Assembly: GCA_021295715.1 (NCBI GenBank)
Contig: JAGWBV010000002.1
Span: 71,261 to 124,496, forward strand
Reading direction: 5' to 3'
DNA from: Candidatus Poribacteria bacterium
GTDB taxonomy: Bacteria > Poribacteria > WGA-4E > WGA-3G
DNA length: 53,236 nt
The position numbers were made by a program, and so were the translations under genes. The notes beneath the pieces are model-generated. The model made no database searches, was not told the origin of the DNA, and saw nothing but the letters and a program-made list of their open reading frames with translations. Below, piece after piece: positions 2,366 to 48,738 of the stretch; position 1 is the stretch's first letter, and each line of letters begins with the position of its first letter.

Positions 2366-3169
2366 TTATTGTGATTTAATGTCTGCCCACGTTGTTGTGA
2401 GCCGTCCCTGCGGGGTGACAGGCGTTAAACCGAGCACAGAGCCAAGTCCATCGTTCATCAGATTTTGGATATCGGCTTGTTCGAGTGGCACATTGAAGAC
2501 TGCAATCTCGTCCATCAATCCCAGTGCTTGTCTTTCGGTGGGTGTTCCCCCTAAATGGACATCAACACCTGTAACGCCAAAGACTCCGGTTGTATCCTGC
2601 TCGATGTCAACTTCACCATCAACGTAGAGGATTTTCTTCGCACCGTCGTAGGTGAAAGCGAGGTGATGCCACTGATCGTCGTTAACAACGGTGGGTCCGA
2701 AGAGCCAGCGCGGATTCAGTTCACGGCTACCGACTTCGATTTTCCCTTGATTTCCGCCTCTGCCGGGACCAAAGACGTTCAGGATATTGTTCCATTGTGT
2801 TGTGAAGGCGATGACCATGTGGTCATCTGCGCAGCAGCCACCGTGTGGATCGCCTTTTCTTTGGATTTTCACCCATGCGACACCGGTGTAGGCTTCGGCT
2901 GTGCTGTCTAAACTATCTGAATTTGCGACATTGACGTAGTCATCGTCCCCATCGAGGCTAAGTGCTTTGCCCCACTTGCCGCCATCGGTAACTTCTGCGC
3001 CGTTTATAAGTTCGCCATCGTTTCCGTAGCTGCTGGAATCACTAACATCGCCATCGTCAAAAAGCCAGACACCGACAGCGGTTTCACTGTCAACTGCGGC
3101 GAAACTCTGCAGCGGGATGAATGCCAATCCCAGGACCGCCAAAACGCACAGTATAGCACGATTTTTCAT
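2366..3169 (-). CDS. Secreted LamG-domain protein with C-terminal TTTW tail
   Basis: 267 residues from ATG 3169, chosen because AAAGGAG lies 9 bases upstream and a signal peptide follows at once (MKNRAILCVLAVLGLAFIPL, QSFAA). The body is a LamG/concanavalin-like jelly roll: GVWLFDDGDVSDSSSYGNDG opening, GKWGKALSLDGDDDYV, WHHLAFTYDGAKKILYVDGE and a closing MDEIAVFNVPLEQADIQNLM. Such domains bind glycans or act as exported adhesive modules. The last residues, VTPQGRLTTTWADIKSQ, carry the tail shared with five other proteins here. Codons of this tail (ctc aca aca acg tgg gca gac att aaa) differ from those of its relatives, so the match is not a recent DNA duplication. Confidence 0.85.
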   Translation of the reverse strand: MKNRAILCVLAVLGLAFIPLQSFAAVDSETAVGVWLFDDGDVSDSSSYGNDGELINGAEVTDGGKWGKALSLDGDDDYVNVANSDSLDSTAEAYTGVAWVKIQRKGDPHGGCCADDHMVIAFTTQWNNILNVFGPGRGGNQGKIEVGSRELNPRWLFGPTVVNDDQWHHLAFTYDGAKKILYVDGEVDIEQDTTGVFGVTGVDVHLGGTPTERQALGLMDEIAVFNVPLEQADIQNLMNDGLGSVLGLTPVTPQGRLTTTWADIKSQ

Positions 3170-3288
3170 TTTACAAATCTCCTTTGAAATGTGAGTGGGT
3201 TGCCTAAACAAAACGCTTAGGCATCAATTTTCCGCTATTTTATCGTAACGGACGCGTAATGTCAAGCGGAATCTATTTTCCTTTTTTA

Positions 3289-4533: not shown

Positions 4534-5292
4534 ATGAAGGTCGTAATGGCGAATTTAATGCGTGTGAGTTTAATTATTCTGAGTCTGATGTTTGCGGGCA
4601 TCAGTGCTGCCGAATTTGATCTGAAAACCGTTGCCGGGATGTGGCTTTTTGATGAGGGCAAGGGCAATACAACAGCGGATTTCTCTGAAAATGGTAATGA
4701 TGGGAAACTTGAGAACGGTCCGAAATGGATAAAGAACGGTCAATTCGGATCCGCGCTGGAATTTGATGGAAATGAGAGTAAGGGACATGTCGTTGTCGGG
4801 GATTTAGGGTTGGCTGGGGCACTTACATTGGTTTTGTGGGCGAAACCGAGTGACGCCGCCGATGATGATCGGTTAATATCGAATCTCAGTGGACCAACAA
4901 ATCCAGCTTTCGCAATTCGGTTTCAAAGTGGCGCGGTTGACATTTGGGGTAGGGCGTGGAAACCCGTCATCCCAAAATTTGATGACAAAAAATGGGGACA
5001 CTATGCGTTTGTATTAGATGATGAAGGAAACGCGACGGGCTATTACAATGGCAAAGAAGGTGAGACGGTTACCGATACCTATATTTTAACGGAAATCGGC
5101 ATCGGGGCAACTTTTTTGCATCAATGGGGACAATATTATTCCGGTCAGTTTGACGATATCGCGTTTTTCAGTGTCGCGCTCACTGAAGATGACATCAACG
5201 TCGCTATGACAAAAGGTCTGAAATCTGCCTTGGCGGTTTACCCAGCGGGCAAATTAACCACCACATGGGGAAATATCAAAACCAATCCTTGA
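4534..5292 (+). CDS. Secreted LamG-domain protein with C-terminal TTTW tail
   Basis: 252 residues. Signal peptide MRVSLIILSLMFAGISAAE follows the first few residues. The LamG fold is intact: VAGMWLFDEGKGNTTADFS, ENGNDGKLENGPKW, GSALEFDGN, WGHYAFVLDDEGNATGYYNG and a closing FDDIAFFSVALTEDDINVAM. It resembles the LamG protein at 2366-3169 in domain order but is clearly diverged. It ends VYPAGKLTTTWGNIKTNP, the tail common to six exported proteins here. The ribosome site lies within the duplicated fragment just upstream. The next gene (5329) follows at 36 bases and also opens with a LamG domain, so the two are likely co-expressed. Confidence 0.85.
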   Translation: MKVVMANLMRVSLIILSLMFAGISAAEFDLKTVAGMWLFDEGKGNTTADFSENGNDGKLENGPKWIKNGQFGSALEFDGNESKGHVVVGDLGLAGALTLVLWAKPSDAADDDRLISNLSGPTNPAFAIRFQSGAVDIWGRAWKPVIPKFDDKKWGHYAFVLDDEGNATGYYNGKEGETVTDTYILTEIGIGATFLHQWGQYYSGQFDDIAFFSVALTEDDINVAMTKGLKSALAVYPAGKLTTTWGNIKTNP

Positions 5293-12108: not shown

Positions 12109-14988
12109 TTAGAACGAGTTGGCTATATCCATTCGCTCCTTAAGTGAGATGTGGAACATGCCATGGTTATGGGTTCCGACGTAAAGTCGATCGTTACTGA
12201 CAACGAGTGATAGAATATTATCGGGAACGTCTGCAGAAAGCAATTCCCACTCGCTGTGAGCATCTAATCGATAGGTACCACTATCACCGACCCCATAGAG
12301 TGTCGTGCCGTCTACAGCGAATTTGCCTATGACGGTGGGCATCTGGTTTTTATCAGTGATGACTTGCCAGTGTTCTCCAGTTTTTGAGATCAAGACACCT
12401 TTGTCGGTTGCGATACAAATTGTTGAACCCGCGAAGATAATCTCCTTGAAATGCGCAAAGCGGATCGGTAGCGTTGACGTGATGTCTTTCCAACTGTCTC
12501 CGCTGTCAAAGGATTGAAACAATTTTCCATTCGTCTTACCGGCGTAGATGGTTTCCCCAGAAACCGCCAATGCAAATTTGGGACTGATACCAACGAATTC
12601 TGTGTCTATCCATTCCGGAGTGCCAGGTTTCCACTTGAAAAGCCGGTGATTGTATTCAGCGTAAAATGTTTCACCATCGACGACGAAGGCTCCGATTTTC
12701 GTATTTTTTTCCCTCAGTAGATGCCACATATATGAGGCAGAGTCATTGTCTGGTGCTAGCTCAGCTTCAAAAGGGGGGACCCCATGAATCGGGATGAGTT
12801 CTTCACCGGCAGGAAATGTGCGGAAGATACTCGGTTTGTTCTCCTGAATCGAAATGGCGTAGAGGACGTTATCGGCGATGGTTAACTTTACGTTGTTATA
12901 AAAATCTGTATCCAATTTGTGTGTGTGCTCGTGGGTATTGAAGTGAACACTTTCCCAAGTCTCACCGCCATCCGTTGACCGGACAAGGTCTCTGCCGATA
13001 TGCATATAGAGTCTATGATTTAGGGCAATCAAGTCGTACATTGCGGGACCTGTCATTCCGTCTACATACGGGTGCCAAGACTCACCAGCATCGGTTGTGC
13101 GGCTGATCCCAAATGCATCTGCCTTGTAAAATGTATTTTCATCGATAGCAACAGATGGAAATCTCGGTGTGCCAAGTGAACTGATGTTAGATCTGAGGTG
13201 GGTCCAAGTTTTTCCACCATCGGTGGATCGAAATTCGGCTACTCCGAGGACGAAGAGGGTTTTACCTGCAGCGAGGACCTGTATAGCGGATTCTAAGTTT
13301 ATGACGCCAGATTCATCCGTAGGTGTTATTTCAGTCCATGAGTCTCCAATATCTGGTGAGTGGAAGATCCTTTTCTGTAATACTTCAATGGTCCTTGGTA
13401 TCTCTGGAAATGATTTAGTGGATTCCGAGTAGACAACATCAGGTGCCATTCCAACGTAGAGGTTATTTTTCTCAACGGTCAAGGCGTAAACGGCACCGGA
13501 TGCGTCAGTGATCAATTGCTGCCAGTTGCTCGAACTGAGACGATAGAGGCCTTGGTTTGTGCCAGCGAATAGGGTGTTTCCCACTACAGCGATTGTAAAA
13601 ATCCGTTTCCCTGTCAATTCGTTGTTTATGGGTGTCCAGTGCTGACCGGCATCAGTAGATCGAAAGATTCCTTGCTCTTGAAGGGCAATATACAACGTTA
13701 CAGGTGCTTTCGGGTCGTATTTTTGGGTTTCCGCTGTGACGATGAGTCCATTCGCGACCCCTTTCGGACGCGGTCCGAGAGCATCCCACGTTTCACCGCC
13801 ATCTCCTGAAGCGAGCACCTCATCAACGGAAACAGTATAAAGGATACCTTGGTGTTCTGTCATAGGCACTCGGTACTGTCCGGTGGGGATATTGGTGTTA
13901 ATAAGCACCCATGTCGCGTTGGGGGTCAATCTATAGAGTCCCGTTTTTGCGGCAGCATAGATTGTTCCGTCAGTAGCTTCAAAGATGTTAAAGACGATAC
14001 CGCCTTTGGGTCCGATTGACTGTGTCCACTGTGAATTCGAAAGTTGGGAGGCCTCGTCGTCCCACGCGTTTGTTGTGAGGGTGGTCTGCGAGGGTTGCAT
14101 GCCGGTACCGCTGTTTTTACTGGGGATAATTGTTCTGCCGATCTGATTCCGCACCGCGGGTTTTGCGACAATCTCAAGGTAGATAGGCTCATCAACGAGT
14201 TCAATGGTAGGTTCAGATTGTGCGTCAAAACTATATGGCTGCTGGAACCGGAGGCGGTATTGACCGCCGATGCCAAAGAGTATTACTAATGCCACTGCAG
14301 AACCGAAGGCTACCCAAGGGAGTAGCGGTTTTTTTGCCGGTGGTGTTGGTGTCGGGCTCAGGTCGGCAATGTGTCGCATGACGTTCTCAGTGAGATTGTC
14401 AGACAATTGCACGCCGCTCAGCGTTTCGCGCACCAGCGTTTCCTCTTCTTGTAGACGCTTGCGTGCGCGCCGGAGTCGGCTCTTAATTGTATTCACCGAC
14501 ACGCCTAAAAATTTACCTATCTCCTTCGCCGTCATTTCGCCGAGGTAGTAGAGCGTCACGACGGTGCGTTCACTCTCTGGAAGTTTCTCCAGAAGCGTTT
14601 TGACGAGATTCTGGCGACGATTTGTGGCTTCAGTTTCACGTTGATGGAAATGGGAAGCCTTTTCTACCTCTTCTGGAAGTGTCTCCTCTAAGGATTGCAT
14701 ATTCAACCTGTCTGTTTTCGCTTTATTTCGCTTTATCCAATTAATGCAGAGTCGATTGGCGATGACATAAAGCCATCCATCAAATCGGTTTGGATCCTCC
14801 AGTGTCCCAAGTTTTTTGTAGACTTGGATGAAGGTGTCTTGGGTAATTTCCTCGGCAGTCTGAAAATCCCCGATTTTCCGCCATAGAAGGGCATGAACAC
14901 CTTTTTGGTGTTTCCGCATCAATATACTGAATGCTTCGTCGTCGCCCGACAAAATTCTGCGAATCAGTTGCACATCGTTATCTATCAT
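12109..14988 (-). CDS. ECF sigma factor fused by a membrane helix to an extracytoplasmic beta-propeller
   Basis: 959 residues. Residues about 20-88 are sigma region 2 (AEEITQDTFIQVYKKL; FDGWLYVIANRLCINWIKR) and 128-180 are sigma region 4 with its helix-turn-helix (MTAKEIGKFLGVSVNTIKSR). A linker (residues 183-222), like those tying sigma factors to inner-membrane partners, leads to one transmembrane helix at 224-241 (PWVAFGSAVALVILFGIGG). The remaining 700 residues are BNR/Ycf48-type propeller repeats: YAAAKTGLYRL, VLASGDGGETWDALG, GIFRSTDAGQHWTPI, FRSTDGGKTWTHL, LVRSTDGGETWESV and more. This puts the promoter-recognition module, membrane anchor and putative sensor in one chain, so release by proteolysis is a plausible but unproven control step. 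Start ATG 14988 follows TGGAGAA. Confidence 0.85.
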   Translation of the reverse strand: MIDNDVQLIRRILSGDDEAFSILMRKHQKGVHALLWRKIGDFQTAEEITQDTFIQVYKKLGTLEDPNRFDGWLYVIANRLCINWIKRNKAKTDRLNMQSLEETLPEEVEKASHFHQRETEATNRRQNLVKTLLEKLPESERTVVTLYYLGEMTAKEIGKFLGVSVNTIKSRLRRARKRLQEEETLVRETLSGVQLSDNLTENVMRHIADLSPTPTPPAKKPLLPWVAFGSAVALVILFGIGGQYRLRFQQPYSFDAQSEPTIELVDEPIYLEIVAKPAVRNQIGRTIIPSKNSGTGMQPSQTTLTTNAWDDEASQLSNSQWTQSIGPKGGIVFNIFEATDGTIYAAAKTGLYRLTPNATWVLINTNIPTGQYRVPMTEHQGILYTVSVDEVLASGDGGETWDALGPRPKGVANGLIVTAETQKYDPKAPVTLYIALQEQGIFRSTDAGQHWTPINNELTGKRIFTIAVVGNTLFAGTNQGLYRLSSSNWQQLITDASGAVYALTVEKNNLYVGMAPDVVYSESTKSFPEIPRTIEVLQKRIFHSPDIGDSWTEITPTDESGVINLESAIQVLAAGKTLFVLGVAEFRSTDGGKTWTHLRSNISSLGTPRFPSVAIDENTFYKADAFGISRTTDAGESWHPYVDGMTGPAMYDLIALNHRLYMHIGRDLVRSTDGGETWESVHFNTHEHTHKLDTDFYNNVKLTIADNVLYAISIQENKPSIFRTFPAGEELIPIHGVPPFEAELAPDNDSASYMWHLLREKNTKIGAFVVDGETFYAEYNHRLFKWKPGTPEWIDTEFVGISPKFALAVSGETIYAGKTNGKLFQSFDSGDSWKDITSTLPIRFAHFKEIIFAGSTICIATDKGVLISKTGEHWQVITDKNQMPTVIGKFAVDGTTLYGVGDSGTYRLDAHSEWELLSADVPDNILSLVVSNDRLYVGTHNHGMFHISLKERMDIANSF

Positions 14989-15054: not shown

Positions 15055-15610
15055 AGTTTAATTAGAATTACGCTACCCTTTTTTAATTATAAAGACACAA
15101 TTTATTGGGAAAAGGGTGCATTTAGATCGAAAATATTTGAAAAATATGAGTTTTTTTATTTTTTTACGAATTGGTGGCTTGTTTAGGGCAAGAAATCTGC
15201 CTACATTGACCCTCAGCTGTCAGTAGGATCACGAAATATTTTTTTTGAACTGACGCTGCGCGATTTTGAGTAAGTTCCCGTTCAAATAGCGGACGATGGT
15301 TTAGTTTTTCGTCGGGATATTTTCAACTGACGCGTCCGTGCGATTCTATCGCGATAACAAGGCTAACCTAATTGTAGCATAACACACAATTCCTAAGCAA
15401 CTGAGGGTACACCTATGTCACGCGACGACCCTTCTCTTATATCTTTGGCATTTACTTTCGGTGGGTATGCGAGTTATACCAATCTGAAGAAAAATTGGTG
15501 TTTATGCACCCATTCGCTGCAAAACGGTGTCTTTAAACTTTAAAGGATATCCTTACAACCCGTAACTTGCGTTATATTAACTTTTTTAAGTGACTATCGG
15601 AGGAATACAG
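15055..15610. other. Non-coding gap between divergent sigma-fusion and PD40 genes
   Basis: About 550 bases with no credible gene on either strand. It holds an AT-rich tract (about 15121-15175, with TTTTTTTATTTTTTT), two partly similar stretches each containing AACTGACGC followed by GCGATT (about 15245 and 15318), and a CTTTAAA/TTTAAAG inverted repeat near 15533. Promoters for both flanking genes are expected here; I cannot pick a convincing -35/-10 pair. Confidence 0.5.
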
Positions 15611-16621
15611 ATGAAATATGTACGCGCCTTCTACGTAATCAGTGGGATACTACTATGTGCGAACGTTTCTTCACTTTTCGCAAAAGCCCCAGAAACTGCC
15701 AAAATCGTATTCAGATCAACGCGTGATGGCAACTTTGAGATTTATAGCATGAACCCGGATGGCTCTGATCAGAAAAACTTAACCCGGCACCGTGCCAATG
15801 ATTCCGCGCCTGTCTGGTCGCCGACAGGTAGACAGATTCTTTTTCTCTCGGATCGAGGTGGGATACCAGATCTCTACCTTATGGATGCCGATGGAACGAA
15901 TGTGCGTCAGGTGTTCAAAAAATTAATAGGCAGAGAGTTTCCAACGTGGTCGCCTGACGGAAAAGCGATTGCTTATCACCGATTTCACACATTCTCTATC
16001 TACACCGCCTCAATTGACGGAACAAATGAGGAAAAACTTGCGGATGGCTTATGGCCTGCGTGGTCTCCCCACGGTGCTGAGATAGCTTTTATGGCAGGCG
16101 AGTTTGTTTGGGCTGACAACGGCAACCTCAGATTTCCGGACGTCAGCGTCGAGATTATCAATCTACAAACGCATGCAAAAGAGAAACTTCTTCCGAGGAG
16201 TATTTCGATGTATAGACCTATCTGGGTACCCGATAGTGATCAGATAACCTTTTCTTGGAACGGTAGGCAAGAGAACGGTTTTTTAGAAGCTAACAAGAGA
16301 GTGCATACCATAGATATCTACGTTGTGAACCGAGATGGTAGCGGACTCAGGAAGATTATTGAGTCTGGAGCAGACATTGGAGTGTCTAACCCTACTTGGT
16401 CACCACGCGGGGATGAACTCATTTACAACATTTACAATCATCAAGGTCGTGGCTCCAGACAGCTCTTTAAAGCCACTTTGGACGGCGGTACCCCAGAGCA
16501 GCTCACACACCGGGGTAATAATTTCCGCGCCGATTGGTTCGATCCGGCGTTTGCTTTGCCGGTGTCACCCCAACCGTCCCTTTTGACGACCACGTGGGGG
16601 AAACTCAAAACACGAGACTAA
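15611..16621 (+). CDS. Secreted PD40 (TolB-type) beta-propeller protein with C-terminal TTTW tail
   Basis: 336 residues from ATG 15611 (CGGAGGA upstream). Signal peptide YVISGILLCANVSSLFAKA. Then six-bladed-propeller PD40 repeats: IVFRSTRDGNFEIYSMNPDG, PVWSPTGRQILFLSDRGG, TWSPDGKAIAYH, AWSPHGAEIAFM, VPDSDQITFSW and TWSPRGDELIYN. It ends FALPVSPQPSLLTTTWGKLKTRD (21 residues back from the stop begins the tail motif). Such propellers bind peptides or glycans; nothing here suggests the Tol-Pal TolB itself, since no TolA, TolR or Pal is present. Closely related in layout to the proteins at 20474 and 47755. Confidence 0.85.
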   Translation: MKYVRAFYVISGILLCANVSSLFAKAPETAKIVFRSTRDGNFEIYSMNPDGSDQKNLTRHRANDSAPVWSPTGRQILFLSDRGGIPDLYLMDADGTNVRQVFKKLIGREFPTWSPDGKAIAYHRFHTFSIYTASIDGTNEEKLADGLWPAWSPHGAEIAFMAGEFVWADNGNLRFPDVSVEIINLQTHAKEKLLPRSISMYRPIWVPDSDQITFSWNGRQENGFLEANKRVHTIDIYVVNRDGSGLRKIIESGADIGVSNPTWSPRGDELIYNIYNHQGRGSRQLFKATLDGGTPEQLTHRGNNFRADWFDPAFALPVSPQPSLLTTTWGKLKTRD

Positions 16622-16775
16622 CATCATGGAGAAATACTTTCTTTAGAAAGCATATCCAAGGGGAGGGCTTCACTCCCGTATCAATAGTATTCGTCCTGGA
16701 GATGGTGTTCCCAATACTGTTTGGGAATCCAATCTTGCCGGAAGAGAAGCACCAGCAGAAAGGAGAAAAACCGAG

Positions 16776-17075
16776 ATGAAAAATAACCTTCGCGATAAAT
16801 TCCGTGACTTCCTGCAATCGGAGGAAGGACGTGTCGGTGTCAAGGCACCGCTTGTAGTAGGTATCGCAGGCGGGAGTTTGTTGTTAGCACAGGCAATGCT
16901 CCCCTCCTCGACACAGGCGCATGGCAATCATCAGGGTTGCCCTCAGTGTCCTGAGGGGCAAGTCTGCGAATCAGGAGAGAAGTGGCAATGGTCTCCCGAC
17001 TGCGATAACGGCCCGGACGAGGAACCGGGATGCATGATATCTCTGGGATGGCACTTCAAGTGTGTTGATCCGTAA
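16776..17075 (+). CDS. Small Cys-rich exported peptide with a SEEG leader
   Basis: 99 residues; AAAGGAG lies 11 bases before the ATG. The first 45 residues form a leader: basic and amphipathic LRDKFRDFLQSEEGRVGVKA, then a hydrophobic stretch (PLVVGIAGGSLLLAQAML) and an export-type site (PSSTQAHG). The remaining half is acidic with six Cys (GCPQCPEGQVC, PDC, PGC, FKC), suited to disulfides or metal binding. The FLxSEEG leader resembles class III (Flp-type) pilin leaders and also some RiPP leaders, but the downstream sequence fits neither well, and no maturase or prepilin peptidase is nearby. It lies between two PD40 genes, a possible ligand or partner for them. Confidence 0.65.
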   Translation: MKNNLRDKFRDFLQSEEGRVGVKAPLVVGIAGGSLLLAQAMLPSSTQAHGNHQGCPQCPEGQVCESGEKWQWSPDCDNGPDEEPGCMISLGWHFKCVDP

Positions 17076-17128: not shown

Positions 17129-17158
17129 CCTTTCAAAAAACTTTGCGAGGAGGACATG

Positions 17159-18280
17159 ATGAGATGGACAAGGATTGAGGACCCTCTCTTTCTGATAAAA
17201 GGCGGGCTTGTATATTATACAATGTTAGGGATTGTCCTTTTTCTAAGTGGTGGTCTGCTGTTCATAGCCAACTGGGCAGACGCTGCTAAAAGCGACCGGA
17301 TCTCTTTTGCTTCCAATCGTGGAGGAAACTTTGATATCTATGTCAGGGACATCAACGGTGAGCACGCCCGCAACTTGACGAACCACCCAACGGATGAGTT
17401 TGGTCCCTGGGCTGGCATAGGATTGCCTGTGCATACCTGGTCTCCAGATGGACGTTTCTTGGCTTATGTCTCCGGGCGAGATGGAGTTTTTAAGATTTAT
17501 GTCATGGACACACGGACGAGGGAACACCGGCGACTCACACATCGCCGCGAAAAAGAATTGGCTCCTGCGTGGTCTCCGGATGGCAAGTGGATTACCTTTG
17601 TCTCCCATGATAACGAAGGTGACAGCGAAATCTACAAAATGGAGGTCAAAAGCGCACATCTGGTCCAATTGACAGACTTTGGAGGAAACGAGCACCCTGC
17701 GTGGTCTCCGGATGGCAAACAGATCGCTTTTGTCTCTTTATCCCACAATCGAGGGGGTAAGAGGGACGGTCTCTATATAATGAATGCCGATGGGGAACGG
17801 TTGAGACGAGTGCCTAACGCCAACAGAGGTTTGATTGGGAAAGGATGTGCGTGGTCTCCGGATGGCAAACAGATCACTTTTAGTGTCTACATCCCTAACA
17901 CCCGGCGAGAGCATCTCTGTGTGATTGACGTGGATGGCAGGAACTTTCGCCAACTCACCCGAGGCGGTCCGATACCCATATTAGGGAATAAGGAACCCGC
18001 CTTTCCGCTTTTACCTCGACCTCCTCTTCCGGAGATTGGTTCTCCCGCATGGTCCTCCGATGGCAAGTGGATTGCCTACGTTTATTCAGAGACAATACTC
18101 TGGCAAACTGCTGACATCTATATTATAGACGCGGCGGGGAACGGGCGCGGTCAACCACTTGTAACGGGTGCACGGCAAAATTTATCTCCTGCGTGGGTGC
18201 CGGAGGGGTTTCTCTCTGTATCGCCGAGCATCGAGAAGCAGACAACCGTCTGGGGCAGGCTGAAAGAAAAAACAGATTAA
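17159..18280 (+). CDS. PD40 (TolB-type) beta-propeller protein with C-terminal TTxW tail
   Basis: 373 residues. Two adjacent ATGs (17156, 17159) follow GAGGAGGA; the second has the better spacing. A long N-region precedes a hydrophobic helix (MLGIVLFLSGGLLFIANWAD), so this may be a signal anchor or a cleaved peptide. PD40 repeats are regular: TWSPDGRFLAYVS, AWSPDGKWITFVS, AWSPDGKQIAFVS, AWSPDGKQITFSV and AWSSDGKWIAYVY. It ends LSVSPSIEKQTTVWGRLKEK plus TD, a diverged version of the shared tail (TTVW rather than TTTW). It follows the Cys-rich peptide gene and its hairpin. Confidence 0.85.
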   Translation: MRWTRIEDPLFLIKGGLVYYTMLGIVLFLSGGLLFIANWADAAKSDRISFASNRGGNFDIYVRDINGEHARNLTNHPTDEFGPWAGIGLPVHTWSPDGRFLAYVSGRDGVFKIYVMDTRTREHRRLTHRREKELAPAWSPDGKWITFVSHDNEGDSEIYKMEVKSAHLVQLTDFGGNEHPAWSPDGKQIAFVSLSHNRGGKRDGLYIMNADGERLRRVPNANRGLIGKGCAWSPDGKQITFSVYIPNTRREHLCVIDVDGRNFRQLTRGGPIPILGNKEPAFPLLPRPPLPEIGSPAWSSDGKWIAYVYSETILWQTADIYIIDAAGNGRGQPLVTGARQNLSPAWVPEGFLSVSPSIEKQTTVWGRLKEKTD

Positions 18281-18371: not shown

Positions 18372-19512
18372 ATGAATCCTTATGAAAAACCATTTATCAA
18401 GCCTTTGAGCAACTACACAATTCTTTTCTTGGAACAGTGTGCCCACTATTGTACGCATTCATAGTGGTGCTAAAAACGGAGCTGCTTTTATAAATTTTGT
18501 TTTGGCTGTATACGGAGCGAAGCGTCCCTTTGATGCCATCGTCGTTGATGCCCCTTGGCTCATACATCGTTTTCAAGAAATATTGTCATCTGACATTGAT
18601 TTTTCTTTTCTCCCTGATCCGATTGATCTCGAAAGGTTTCAGCCATACCAAGACAAGATAATAGGGAAGCGATGTATAAACGCCATTTTTGACACACAAG
18701 AGGTCTTCCAAAAACCCGTTGTCGGAATCATCCTTGGAGAAGTGCCCGAAGTCAATTATCGTGTTGGGGAATTCATTGCTCAGTTGTGTCCAGAACTCTT
18801 CTTTGTTGTATTCGCACCTGAGTTACCAGATATGTATTTAAATAATCTGCCTAATAACCTTGTTTTTTATACAGAAACTGAACAACTTGGGACGGATCCA
18901 CACTTGCTCCCGATGCTATTCAACGCTATGGATATCTGCTTCTTCCATGCAAACTTACAAAGCTCCAGTTCGCTACTGTTCCAGGGTTTGGCTTGCGGAG
19001 TCCCTACGCTTATAGGGACGAGTGTTGCTATACCTGAGTTTGGGAACGCCTGTGCTTTTATAGATTCAAAAAGAGAGATTACAGACCACGAATACTTGAA
19101 ACACGTTCTCGAGGACTCAAAGCAGTTATTGGCAGATAGCTCAGAAATAGATCGGCTCTCCAAGGAGGGCCGGAAATTGGCAGAAAGTTTTTCTTCCGAT
19201 GCCATTTCGGAGCATTTTATTAACCTTATTCACTCATTAACGCAGCGACAGATCGAAACTGAGGCGATGTCCACTTTCAATTCTTTCCCTAATCTGTTCT
19301 GCTATAATTATGATAACAATCATGGGACTGTCCGATCTCAAGCACTTCAGCATCCACACTATTCCGCAGAAAGTATTGAGGTTGGACTTGCTAAAGAGCT
19401 TCTCAACTCTCACTCACGCCCGCAGGTTGAGACGCTTCTCACTGAAATATGCGATGATAATAGAGAGAAGGTATCTCACATTTTAGACACACTTTCCGGG
19501 TCGGTGCTGTAG
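18372..19512 (+). pseudogene. GT4-like glycosyltransferase, frameshifted and N-terminally shortened
   Basis: The main frame (18439-19512, 357 residues) has no good start: its GTG lacks a ribosome site and TGA stands upstream at 18406. A second frame from ATG 18372 gives NPYEKPFIKPLSNYTILFLE and then stops at 18462, so a one-base shift near 18436-18450 would join the two. Downstream is a GT-B glycosyltransferase second half: FLPDPIDLERFQPY, VVGIILGEVPEVNYRVGEFI, DICFFHANLQSSSSLLFQGL and ACGVPTLIGTSVAIPEFGN. The expected donor-binding Glu of the E-x7-E block is replaced (LLFQGL). Together with the broken nucleotidyltransferase next to it, this was a sugar-activation and transfer pair. Sequencing error is an alternative. 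Confidence 0.7.
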
Positions 19513-19624: not shown

Positions 19625-20320
19625 ATGCAAGCGATTATTCTGTGTGGCGGTTTAGCAAAGCGGTTGGGTGAGACTACGAAAACAGTCCCAAGATTTTGCT
19701 TGACATTGCTGATCAAACAGTGTTGAATTGGCAACTGCAACTACTCAAAGAGGCAGGTGTCAGAGAGGTCATCCTCGCCTCGGGCCACCTGCACAATGTG
19801 CTGTATGAACGCGTGGGAGACTGCTACGGTGGTGTGTATTCGCTATGCGAAAGAAGAGAAAAGACTCGGTACCGGCGGCGCGATCCGGAACGCTATGAAA
19901 TATATCACCGCGTCCCCTTTTTTGGCCTCAACGGCGATGTGCTCCTTGATAACTTTTCGTTCCGAGGGATGTTAAATTACTTTCGCCCAAGACATGACAG
20001 GATTGTTACTGAGTGTGTATGTTGATGATATGCGTCCCTACGGATAGATTGTATCCGACAGAAACGGGAAAATTATAACCTTCTGTGAGAAACAATTAAC
20101 CTGTTCTGCAGGATACATCAATGGGGGAATGTATCTCTTCAACGAAGCAATTACTGAGGTGTTTCCCAAGGATAGGGACAGTTTCTCAATTGAACAGAAT
20201 GTTTTCCCTTACGTGTCCGATTTGTGGACGTTGTGCACCGATGCGAATTGGATTGATATAGGTGTCCCAGAACGGCTAGCGTATGCGAGACAGCACTTCC
20301 GAAATGGAGGGTTTCGGTAA
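19625..20320 (+). pseudogene. Sugar-phosphate nucleotidyltransferase (HddC/ManC-like), multiply frameshifted
   Basis: Family motifs are all present but spread over two frames: MQAIILCGGLAKRLGETTKT at 19625, then KILLDIADQTVLNWQLQLL from about 19690, GTGGAIRNAMKYI near 19870, FGLNGDVLLDN near 19925, SAGYINGGMYLFNEA near 20120 and ANWIDIGVPERLAYARQHF at the end. Joining them needs four frame changes (near 19695, 19845, 19905 and 19995), and an in-frame TAG stands at 20045. An intact enzyme would activate a sugar-1-phosphate with NTP (GDP-heptose or GDP-mannose type). This much damage points to real decay rather than one sequencing slip. Confidence 0.75.
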
Positions 20321-20473
20321 AGGGAGTGTCGTTGGTAATCGGTGTTGCGCCTGATATTTTTCAAGTCCCAGAAAGAAGTCGTCTATTTGAGAAAAAATGA
20401 TACAATAGGCATTGGGGAACTCCTTTTTCAGGGGTTAGGTTACCTCATGATACCAGATGGAGGAAAGAATCTT

Positions 20474-21445
20474 ATGAACCGCTCGTGTTTGTTTATTTTT
20501 TTTACACTCAGTCTGATGCTGTTGTACCAAGGGCTGTGTCCTGTTTTGGCAAATGCTCCAGCAACTGCTAAAATCGTGTTTAGCTCCACTCTTGACGGCA
20601 ACGCGGAAATTTATATGATGAACCCAGATGGGAGTCAACGGGTGAGATTAACCAATCACCCAGCGCGCGATTCGGCACCCGTTTGGTCACCAACAGGCGA
20701 ACAGATTGTTTTTAACTCCGATCGCGATGGGAAATGGGACATCTACATTATGGATGCGGACGGGACAAATGTGAGGAGGGTGTTTAAGACGCTTGCACAT
20801 AGAGAACATCCAGCATGGTCTCCCGATGGAAAATGGATTGCTTACACGCTGCATGCTGAATGGGCTATCTATATTGCGAAGACTGATGGGCGCGATGCCA
20901 AGAGAATCGCTTCGACGGGTTTTCTTGGAGGGGATCCAGCATGGTCTCCCGACGGAACGCAGATCGCGTTCTGTTTGGCACAAGCTATAAATCCAGGAAG
21001 TTACCAACTTCGACTTGTCAACCTAAAGACCGGTGATCAAGAAACGATCCATCCGGAGCCTTGGCTGCGAATGACCCAACCGGCTTGGTCTCCGAATAGC
21101 GACCAAATCGCCTTTGCCCACATTCCAGTATTGAGACAGGATGTCCCTAAAGGGACAATCTACACGCTGAATCGTTTTGGTGGCGAACTCAGACGAATTG
21201 TTTCTGAGAAGGGTGGGAGGGCATCCCATCCTACATGGTCTCCAGATGGAGAGGAACTTCTTTATCAACAGAAAATCGGAAATCATACGCAGCTCTTTAA
21301 AATCAATTTGGGTACGAGTCAAATCCAAAAACTCACCCGCCGTGGTAGCAATTTCCACGCCGATTGGTTTGATCCACAGGTGTTGCCCGTTCAGCCAGCG
21401 AAAAAGACAATCACAACAATTTGGGCTGAAGTGAAGAAGGAGTAA
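20474..21445 (+). CDS. Secreted PD40 (TolB-type) beta-propeller protein with C-terminal TTxW tail
   Basis: 323 residues from ATG 20474, chosen over upstream starts because GGAGGA lies 8 bases before it and a signal peptide follows at once (CLFIFFTLSLMLLYQGLCPV, LANA). PD40 repeats: [76 protein letters not shown] and TWSPDGEELLYQQ. It shares HADWFDPQVLPVQP with the RADWFDPAFALPVSP of the protein at 15611, marking them as close paralogues. The tail is KKTITTIWAEVKKE, so Gly of the motif is Ala and the helix residue is Val. It lies downstream of the decayed glycosylation pair. Confidence 0.85.
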   Translation: MNRSCLFIFFTLSLMLLYQGLCPVLANAPATAKIVFSSTLDGNAEIYMMNPDGSQRVRLTNHPARDSAPVWSPTGEQIVFNSDRDGKWDIYIMDADGTNVRRVFKTLAHREHPAWSPDGKWIAYTLHAEWAIYIAKTDGRDAKRIASTGFLGGDPAWSPDGTQIAFCLAQAINPGSYQLRLVNLKTGDQETIHPEPWLRMTQPAWSPNSDQIAFAHIPVLRQDVPKGTIYTLNRFGGELRRIVSEKGGRASHPTWSPDGEELLYQQKIGNHTQLFKINLGTSQIQKLTRRGSNFHADWFDPQVLPVQPAKKTITTIWAEVKKE

Positions 21446-47754: not shown

Positions 47755-48738
47755 ATGAAGTTGATGTTTCCTAAAGGAATCATAAAACTGTTCTGTTTAC
47801 AGAAGTGTTTTTTGGCAGTATTGGCAGGCCTTTTCACCGTATTGGCAAATCAGACTCCCGCGGATGTTATGAAGATCGCCTTCACCTCAACCAGAAATGG
47901 TAATTCTGAAATCTATGTGATGAATACCGATGGAACAAATCCGGTCAGACTCACTAAAAATCCGGCATCAGACAGTGGGCCCACTTGGTCTCCAGACGGT
48001 AAGCGCATTGCTTTTACCTCGAACCCAAAAGGCGTCTACGATATCTATGCGATAAATGCTGATGGGACAAACCGCATCAATCTCACACGAAATTCGTCAG
48101 GCGACTTTGGTGCTGATTGGTCTCCGGATGGGACGCAAATCGTCTATGGTTCAAACCGAGGGAACGAAGAGATCTATATCATGCGCGCAGATGGTAGCAA
48201 GCCTACGAATATCTCACGGCATGTAAAAGCCGACCGCCACCCAGATTGGTCTCCGGATGGAACACGAATTGCCTTCACCTCAGACCGAGATGGTGATCGT
48301 GAGATCTATGTGATAGGCGTTGGTGGAGGCAGACCTATTCAACTGACGAAAAACTTGGAACCATGGGACAGGGCTGCTGCCTGGTCTCCAGATGGCAAGC
48401 GAATTGCCTTCACTTCAGGCAGAGATGGTGATTTTGAAATCTATGTGATGGATGCCGATGGTTCCGATACCATTCAACTAACGCATAACCTATTCGCATT
48501 TGATGATCATGCTGCCTGGTCTCCAGATGGGACAAAAATCGCCTTCAGTTCTGACCGAGATGGTGAGGATGACATCTATGTGATGAATGACGACGGCTCC
48601 AACCCTGTCAATCTCACTCAAAATCTGGCTGGCAGTAATAGGAGTCCCGCTTGGCAGCCGCTACCGTTAGCGGTTTCGCCGCAAGAAAAGTTGGTGACGC
48701 TGTGGGGAAACCTCAAAAGCAAGCAGAAACCGTATTAG
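47755..48738 (+). CDS. Secreted PD40 (TolB-type) beta-propeller protein with C-terminal TTxW-type tail
   Basis: 327 residues; AAGGAGGT lies 7 bases before the ATG. Signal peptide [19 protein letters not shown]. Six very regular PD40 blades: [84 protein letters not shown] and a closing AWQPLP. The high blade-to-blade identity suggests recent internal amplification. It ends [20 protein letters not shown] plus KPY; Thr-Thr has become Val-Thr-Leu before Trp-Gly, the most diverged tail of the six. Faces a convergent enolase-family gene. Confidence 0.88.

Follow-up and report, generated by a model that had tools for sequence, protein, structure and literature searches.

A Candidatus Poribacteria family of Cys-rich peptides with a common leader, encoded beside RRE-glycosyltransferases, an A24 peptidase and propeller proteins and preceded by a structured RNA

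The closest described counterparts of the peptides analyzed here are the RRE-dependent RiPPs (SCIFF/ranthipeptide maturases, CteB; PqqD), whose leader-plus-core precursors are encoded beside an enzyme with an N-terminal RiPP-recognition-element (RRE) domain. In contrast, the enzyme of the Poribacteria clusters is a GT4-type glycosyltransferase rather than a radical SAM or YcaO protein, the leader includes a membrane segment, an A24 peptidase is present, and one genome can hold up to 20 precursors. Fusions of an RRE to a glycosyltransferase, as found here, have been flagged by RRE-Finder as candidate novel RiPP enzymes (PMC7470986, Fig. S7; PMC12710340). As far as its main text goes, the fusions of PMC12710340 are GT2 proteins (PF00535), whereas the Poribacteria enzymes belong to GT4 (PF00534). 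In their main texts, neither paper describes a precursor family, an A24 peptidase, pairing with propellers or a structured RNA, and their supplementary figures may overlap with our findings. A literature search covering main texts returned no paper joining RRE-glycosyltransferase fusions to such precursors; in the literature found, the fusions are so far orphan architectures.

Other systems share single traits. Glycocins (PMC12457901, PMC8620827) pair a disulfide-rich peptide with a clustered glycosyltransferase, but the Poribacteria enzyme is a GT4 with an RRE, not a SunS-type GT2, the leader is very different, and neither a double-Gly leader nor an ABC transporter/protease was noticed in Poribacteria clusters. 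DUF2282 precursors with DUF2063-associated RREs resemble our family in their RRE association and Sec-type signal peptide. According to the main text of PMC12710340, they yielded no RRE-binding motif, whereas the Poribacteria peptides have a fixed motif and other enzymes. The N-terminal model of HxsA3 (NF038309) was weakly matched by 10 of 16 leaders (best E 0.01), far under the model cut-off, and His-Xaa-Ser repeats were not seen here. Lastly, Flp/type IV prepilins processed by TadV/PilD (A24) have a basic N-region, a Gly before the hydrophobic helix and an A24 peptidase nearby. We consider it the best reading, at a probability of about 60%, that the peptides are RRE-guided, probably glycosylated, disulfide-rich secreted products whose leader a dedicated A24 peptidase would remove and which would function together with paired propellers.

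The window, i.e., the whole stretch of 53,236 nucleotides that was analyzed, contains one such precursor gene in the following setting.

12109 to 14988, minus strand: ECF sigma factor fused to a BNR/YCF48-type propeller (Pfam)
15590 to 16621, plus strand: upstream PD40 propeller with a WGKLK tail (Pfam PF07676, E 1.5e-21)
16651 to 16765, plus strand: predicted structured 5' UTR RNA, made up of P1 with two inner hairpins, P2 and P3, and terminating at the Shine-Dalgarno sequence (cmsearch model R1)
16759 to 16765, plus strand: Shine-Dalgarno sequence AAAGGAG, 10 nt 5' of the ATG (from the sequence)
16776 to 17075, plus strand: precursor peptide gene, 99 aa, ATG start
16776 to 16829, plus strand: leader residues 1 to 18, basic and amphipathic, ending in S-E-E-G (S-E-[ED]-G in 70 of 70 members)
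16830 to 16919, plus strand: residues 19 to 48, RVGVKAP and a hydrophobic segment ending in STQA, a putative signal-peptidase-I-like site
16920 to 17072, plus strand: core, the acidic, six-Cys predicted mature part (hypervariable half)
17156 to 18280, plus strand: paired downstream PD40 propeller with a WGRLK tail (Pfam PF07676, E 6.1e-41; family pairing statistic)
18439 to 19512, plus strand: truncated RRE-glycosyltransferase that has lost the RRE (residues 195 to 557 of a 557-aa homologue)
19625 to 20323, plus strand: nucleotidyltransferase pseudogene with three in-frame stops, 50% identical to an intact copy
20342 to 21445, plus strand: third PD40 propeller with a WAEVK tail (Pfam, tail)

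An earlier note on this DNA had described the small ORF as a Cys-rich peptide between two PD40 genes. The gene itself held up, with its ATG, Shine-Dalgarno sequence, basic amphipathic FLQSEEG leader, hydrophobic part and six-Cys acidic half. It is indeed flanked by the PD40 genes at 15590-16621 and 17156-18280, but a third, at 20342, lies nearby. The leader of the window peptide, MKNNLRDKFRDFLQSEEGRVGVKAPL, has FLQSEEG as its terminal residues, and we propose an A24 peptidase site after Gly18. The hydrophobic stretch reaches about residue 40, TQA occupies the position of an AxA site, and the six Cys (residues 55, 58, 64, 76, 86 and 96) all lie in the acidic C-terminal half. AlphaFold2 (AF2) modeled the peptide with an overall pLDDT of 70, placing a low-confidence helix at residues 23 to 40 and a beta hairpin, at a pLDDT of about 80, in the core only. 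A Foldseek search with this model gave no match, and Pfam and NCBIfam searches gave none above cut-off. The core profile was also run against PDB sequences and retrieved only spider cystine-knot peptides at E 0.5 to 5, a chance level due to the Cys pattern, and these were set aside.

Homologues sharing the leader, which the earlier note had suggested looking for, were abundant. A whole-genome tblastn search with the window peptide gave 16 matches in its own genome, 12 of them at E<1e-5, so that the window gene is one of at least 16 paralogues, and many of these lie in tandem with PD40 genes (contigs C143, C56, C75, C151 and C125). The four weakest matches (E 0.01 to 0.06) represent a second subfamily of identical anatomy (FFVKEDGHVAHKNAL), encoded on C85 and C11 with Kelch propellers. 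First-type peptides were present in 37 of 97 genomes (own and relatives), in up to 20 copies per genome, with more than 140 matches among those listed for the relatives. The second-type query matched 27 of the 97 genomes at E up to 0.01, some of them because it cross-matched first-type peptides. Given the 16 matches in its own genome and many more in relatives, the small ORF is more than a chance reading frame. When 84,980 species genomes were scanned with one conserved pattern, which more distant relatives could escape, 25 loci came back, all in Candidatus Poribacteria. In one genome (G018 contig 2, 8-20 kb and 244-258 kb), a near-identical peptide cluster occurs twice, with several peptides identical, which reflects either duplication of a large segment or overlap in the assembly.

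The peptides are conserved at one end and diverse at the other, as the earlier note had anticipated for a SEEGxxxxKxP leader followed by varying C-terminal halves. Mean pairwise identity among 70 peptides was 67% in the leader versus 25% in the core. S-E-[E/D]-G and a Lys at +5 are invariant (70/70 each), and Pro at +7 occurs in 66/70. The hydrophobic segment (mean KD 1.86 over 17 residues) is followed by an AxA site in 56 of 77 members, and net charge goes from +3 in the N-region to -4 in the core. Cys residues, three to six per peptide, are confined to the core (four in 41 peptides, six in 21). Most cores have a Ser or Thr immediately N-terminal to one particular Cys, namely, the last one when there are four (34 of 43 cores) and the fifth when there are six (16 of 22). 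Ser/Thr account for 8.9% of core residues as background, making this residue a candidate glycosylation site; the window peptide has PGC at its fifth Cys and no Ser/Thr there. Among 22 alignable close pairs, pN/pS was 0.25 for leaders and 0.52 for cores with overlapping intervals, so that there was no sign of positive selection on the cores, and that idea was dropped. Synonymous sites in the leader have diverged (pS 0.46), while SEEG and Lys+5 stay invariant.

The main clusters encode two glycosyltransferases, each with an N-terminal RRE domain. A profile of these N-termini (A4) aligned with the radical SAM protein 5wgg over residues 6-78 at an E value of 2.6e-13; 5wgg is the sactisynthase CteB, and its N-terminal domain is an RRE. 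PqqD was the top Pfam family for 11 of 15 N-termini, with mostly weak matches (best E 1.5e-4), and NCBIfam radical SAM peptide maturases matched up to 14 of the 15. In an AF2 model with a pLDDT mostly of 80 to 93, the domain consists of three strands followed by three helices. This is the order required of an RRE in the account of PMC12710340. The remainder of the protein has a GT4 fold (best match MshA, E 2.6e-13; Pfam PF00534). The EX7E motif of GT4 enzymes is kept in one of the two proteins, RREGT_c; the other, RREGT_a, is missing the first Glu and may be inactive or changed in activity, judging from its sequence.

Complete clusters are arranged as RRE-glycosyltransferase (c), RRE-glycosyltransferase (a), peptide, PD40, methyltransferase, A24 peptidase and UshA-like/cytochrome c554 protein, followed by further (peptide, PD40)n units, a nucleotidyltransferase, a phosphomannomutase (PMM) and an ECF sigma/BNR protein. 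Hallmarks of RRE-dependent RiPPs were thus found, namely, a precursor with a conserved leader and a variable core, modifying enzymes (GT4, methyltransferase) clustered with it, and an RRE (PqqD-like) domain in a clustered protein. One A24 peptidase just missed the PF01478 cut-off (E 2e-5, 25.4 bits against 26.5), another exceeded it (E 1e-7, 32.8 bits), and the catalytic Asp motifs (TD..., GD) are present. Among the shared neighbors that the earlier note had envisaged, the prepilin-type peptidase was there, joined by the RRE-glycosyltransferases, but no radical SAM enzyme was recognized among cluster neighbors, although radical SAM peptide maturases carry an RRE of this type. Two other conserved neighbors were observed. 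The UshA-like protein (NF041198) fused to cytochrome c554 domains (L021:5864-7490; homologues in L057, L059 and L062) is constant in the clusters, and NF041198 has selenoprotein members with PCGU where PCGC is found here. The other conserved neighbor is about 103 aa long (RVFYILTL...GCLEVELLD.Y.DRAGYCISE.WE; L022:3279-3587, L144:5769-6080, L145:10056-10367) and adjoins the A24 gene in second-subfamily and class-level clusters.

Peptides and A24 genes occurred together in 32 of the 97 genomes, each without the other in five, and neither in 55 (p 2.9e-15); for peptides and RREGT_a, the numbers were 28 with both, nine with peptides only, one with the enzyme only and 59 with neither (p 1.7e-15). 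Within the genus, the corresponding p values were 1.1e-3 and 7e-7. All these values are optimistic because related genomes were counted as independent, and some of the genomes with peptides and no A24 (five) or no RREGT_a (nine) are fragmented.

An A24 peptidase that is clustered and co-occurs with the peptides, a Gly that in all 70 members immediately precedes the basic/hydrophobic part, and a basic N-region with a hydrophobic helix would all fit small class-III-signal (Flp/type-IV-like) prepilins. Such peptides would retain the helix after A24 cleavage and form a filament or anchor that shows a Cys-rich tip and holds the propellers, and the glycosyltransferases would glycosylate the pilin. 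The earlier note had proposed a pilin-like or modified peptide; the peptides fall outside the pilins in the strict sense, because +5 is Lys instead of Glu in all 70. Pro at +7 in 66/70, AxA-type sites beyond the helix in 56/77 and the very different cores of many members also argue against prepilins, and no pilus assembly ATPase or platform gene was recognized in the loci by reading and BLAST to reference genes. We regard a pilin-type system as unlikely. Since Lys at +5 is unlike prepilin substrates, A24 cleavage at Gly18 within the RRE-guided peptide reading is likewise guessed from where the Gly lies and from the co-occurrence.

Distant relatives bear on a simpler possibility. The AxA site and signal-like h-region would also suit plain secreted Cys-rich peptides whose signal peptide is extended; the leader would then be kept through recent duplication, and the RRE-glycosyltransferases would make a surface polysaccharide. 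Duplicated units do carry remnants of a glycosyltransferase 3' end, and the nucleotidyltransferase and PMM are sugar-nucleotide genes; the glycan enzymes could indeed serve a polysaccharide instead. However, what is retained over large distances speaks against this account. Two class-level relatives keep the RRE-glycosyltransferase pair, A24 and alternating peptide and propeller genes with much diverged leaders (ILSEEGRVGSRTAL, LLLSECGDVPRKNAL), and a phylum-level relative has peptide-LamG pairs 3' of a c554 gene. At both levels, the motif E-x-G-x-V-x-x-[KR] persists in otherwise different leaders. Together with the invariance of SEEG and Lys+5 despite the leader pS and pN/pS values given above, the RRE domains on the glycosyltransferases and the dedicated A24 peptidase, this makes simple secretion a rather improbable account of the family.

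The precursor gene is preceded by an RNA element of about 115 nt with 36 base pairs in the model. The window RNA scored 109.1 bits (E 1.8e-23) in a cmsearch with model R1, a match by construction, since the window sequence is among the 26 used to build it. In this 26-sequence seed, 90% of the pairs form and 19 of the 36 vary on both sides (9.2 in shuffles). In 72 distinct sequences, aligned by fitting to the model and hence leaning towards it, 35 of 36 pairs changed on both sides, with 187 two-sided cells versus 57 in shuffles (0 of 500 shuffles). The loci contain 75 matches, some of them not independent, and all but one (74) are located immediately 5' of a leader-peptide gene or its remnant; in 66 clear cases the ATG follows the element by 9 to 14 nt. 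No match near a gathering score was found among 4227 Rfam models, and the element corresponds to no known riboswitch in that set. With its strong covariation, the predicted RNA counts as a separate, new motif, and it may have a role in translation control. The element is absent from the second subfamily. In loci where the glycosyltransferase gene precedes the peptide, its stop codon lies inside P1 (VFKHFQ...stop), so that translational coupling is possible there.

This overlap of the RNA 5' arm with the glycosyltransferase 3' end in some loci could mean that the conserved sequence is a by-product of that 3' end, copied with each unit and without RNA function. The two-sided changes, in pairs and in cells, far exceed those of the shuffles, the stems are kept in many copies that are non-coding there, G-U outnumbers A-C on the transcribed strand (79 versus 40), and the element was not found in seven genomes without first-type (SEEG-type) peptides. 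We therefore consider a mere copying by-product very improbable and retain a functional 5' UTR RNA. In two loci (L057 16087-16201 and L090 12771-12885), intact RNA elements precede peptide genes without a reading frame or start codon; these losses are recent gene decay.

A propeller gene is commonly found 3' of each peptide gene, and a BNR or LamG protein also in distant relatives. Core identity correlated with the identity of the downstream PD40 protein (Mantel r 0.40, p 5e-4, 56 pairs) and not with that of the upstream one (r 0.06, p 0.2, 32 pairs), in a test that counts related units as independent. The comparison shows that peptide and downstream propeller are inherited jointly as a unit, which does not thereby prove binding. 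A pairing like that of methylamine dehydrogenase (propeller plus Cys-rich small subunit) was also considered and dropped, as one propeller matched TTQ_MADH_Hv at chance level (E 0.09). Secreted PD40, Kelch, BNR and LamG proteins throughout Poribacteria, also those far from peptide genes, end in a short tail of the approximate form V-x-P-x-x-K-L-T-T-x-W-[GA]-x-[LIV]-K. It is present in the window at 2366-3211 (minus strand), 4534-5292 (plus strand), 15590-16621, 17156-18280, 20342-21445 and 47755-48738, and in L144, L145 and L146, and looks like a sorting or attachment tag.

These features can be assembled into a tentative pathway. The 5' UTR RNA would govern translation of the peptide, and the RRE domains of both GT4 glycosyltransferases would bind the common leader, allowing a sugar to be placed on the core, perhaps at the Ser/Thr that most cores have next to a Cys on its N-terminal side. 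The hydrophobic segment would direct the peptide to the membrane, where the A24 peptidase may cleave behind S-E-E-G and signal peptidase I probably behind AxA. Outside the cytoplasm, the acidic core would form two or three disulfides and work with the propeller encoded 3', as its ligand or assembly partner. The stronger proposal, of a new glyco-RiPP class restricted to Poribacteria, in which hypervariable glycopeptides share one leader, A24 release and RNA control and each has its own propeller, is one that we put forward as possible but somewhat doubtful. If true, it would amount to a diversified peptide-receptor or surface-recognition repertoire for these sponge symbionts and to a case in which a prepilin-type peptidase works in the maturation of peptides. 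Among sponge symbionts, Poribacteria are dominant and uncultured, and the family would be a concrete, testable candidate for the means by which they affect the host or one another. RRE-glycosyltransferase fusions would also gain from it a natural substrate and a context.

The window copy itself is best described, from its gene content, as a reduced satellite in a decayed cluster, in which the peptide, RNA and downstream propeller are intact and the glycosyltransferase and nucleotidyltransferase are broken. In a tblastn comparison, the glycosyltransferase fragment was 82% identical over 363 aa to L072:13737-15410, with stop codons lying 5' of the fragment, and the locus resembles L072 (G017 contig 6) with RREGT_c deleted. 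Since the local glycosyltransferase and nucleotidyltransferase are broken, processing enzymes would come from other clusters (C125, C75, C151). Homologues of the ECF sigma/BNR fusion (ECF_L019/ECF_BNR) border most peptide clusters, and this protein could be their regulator.
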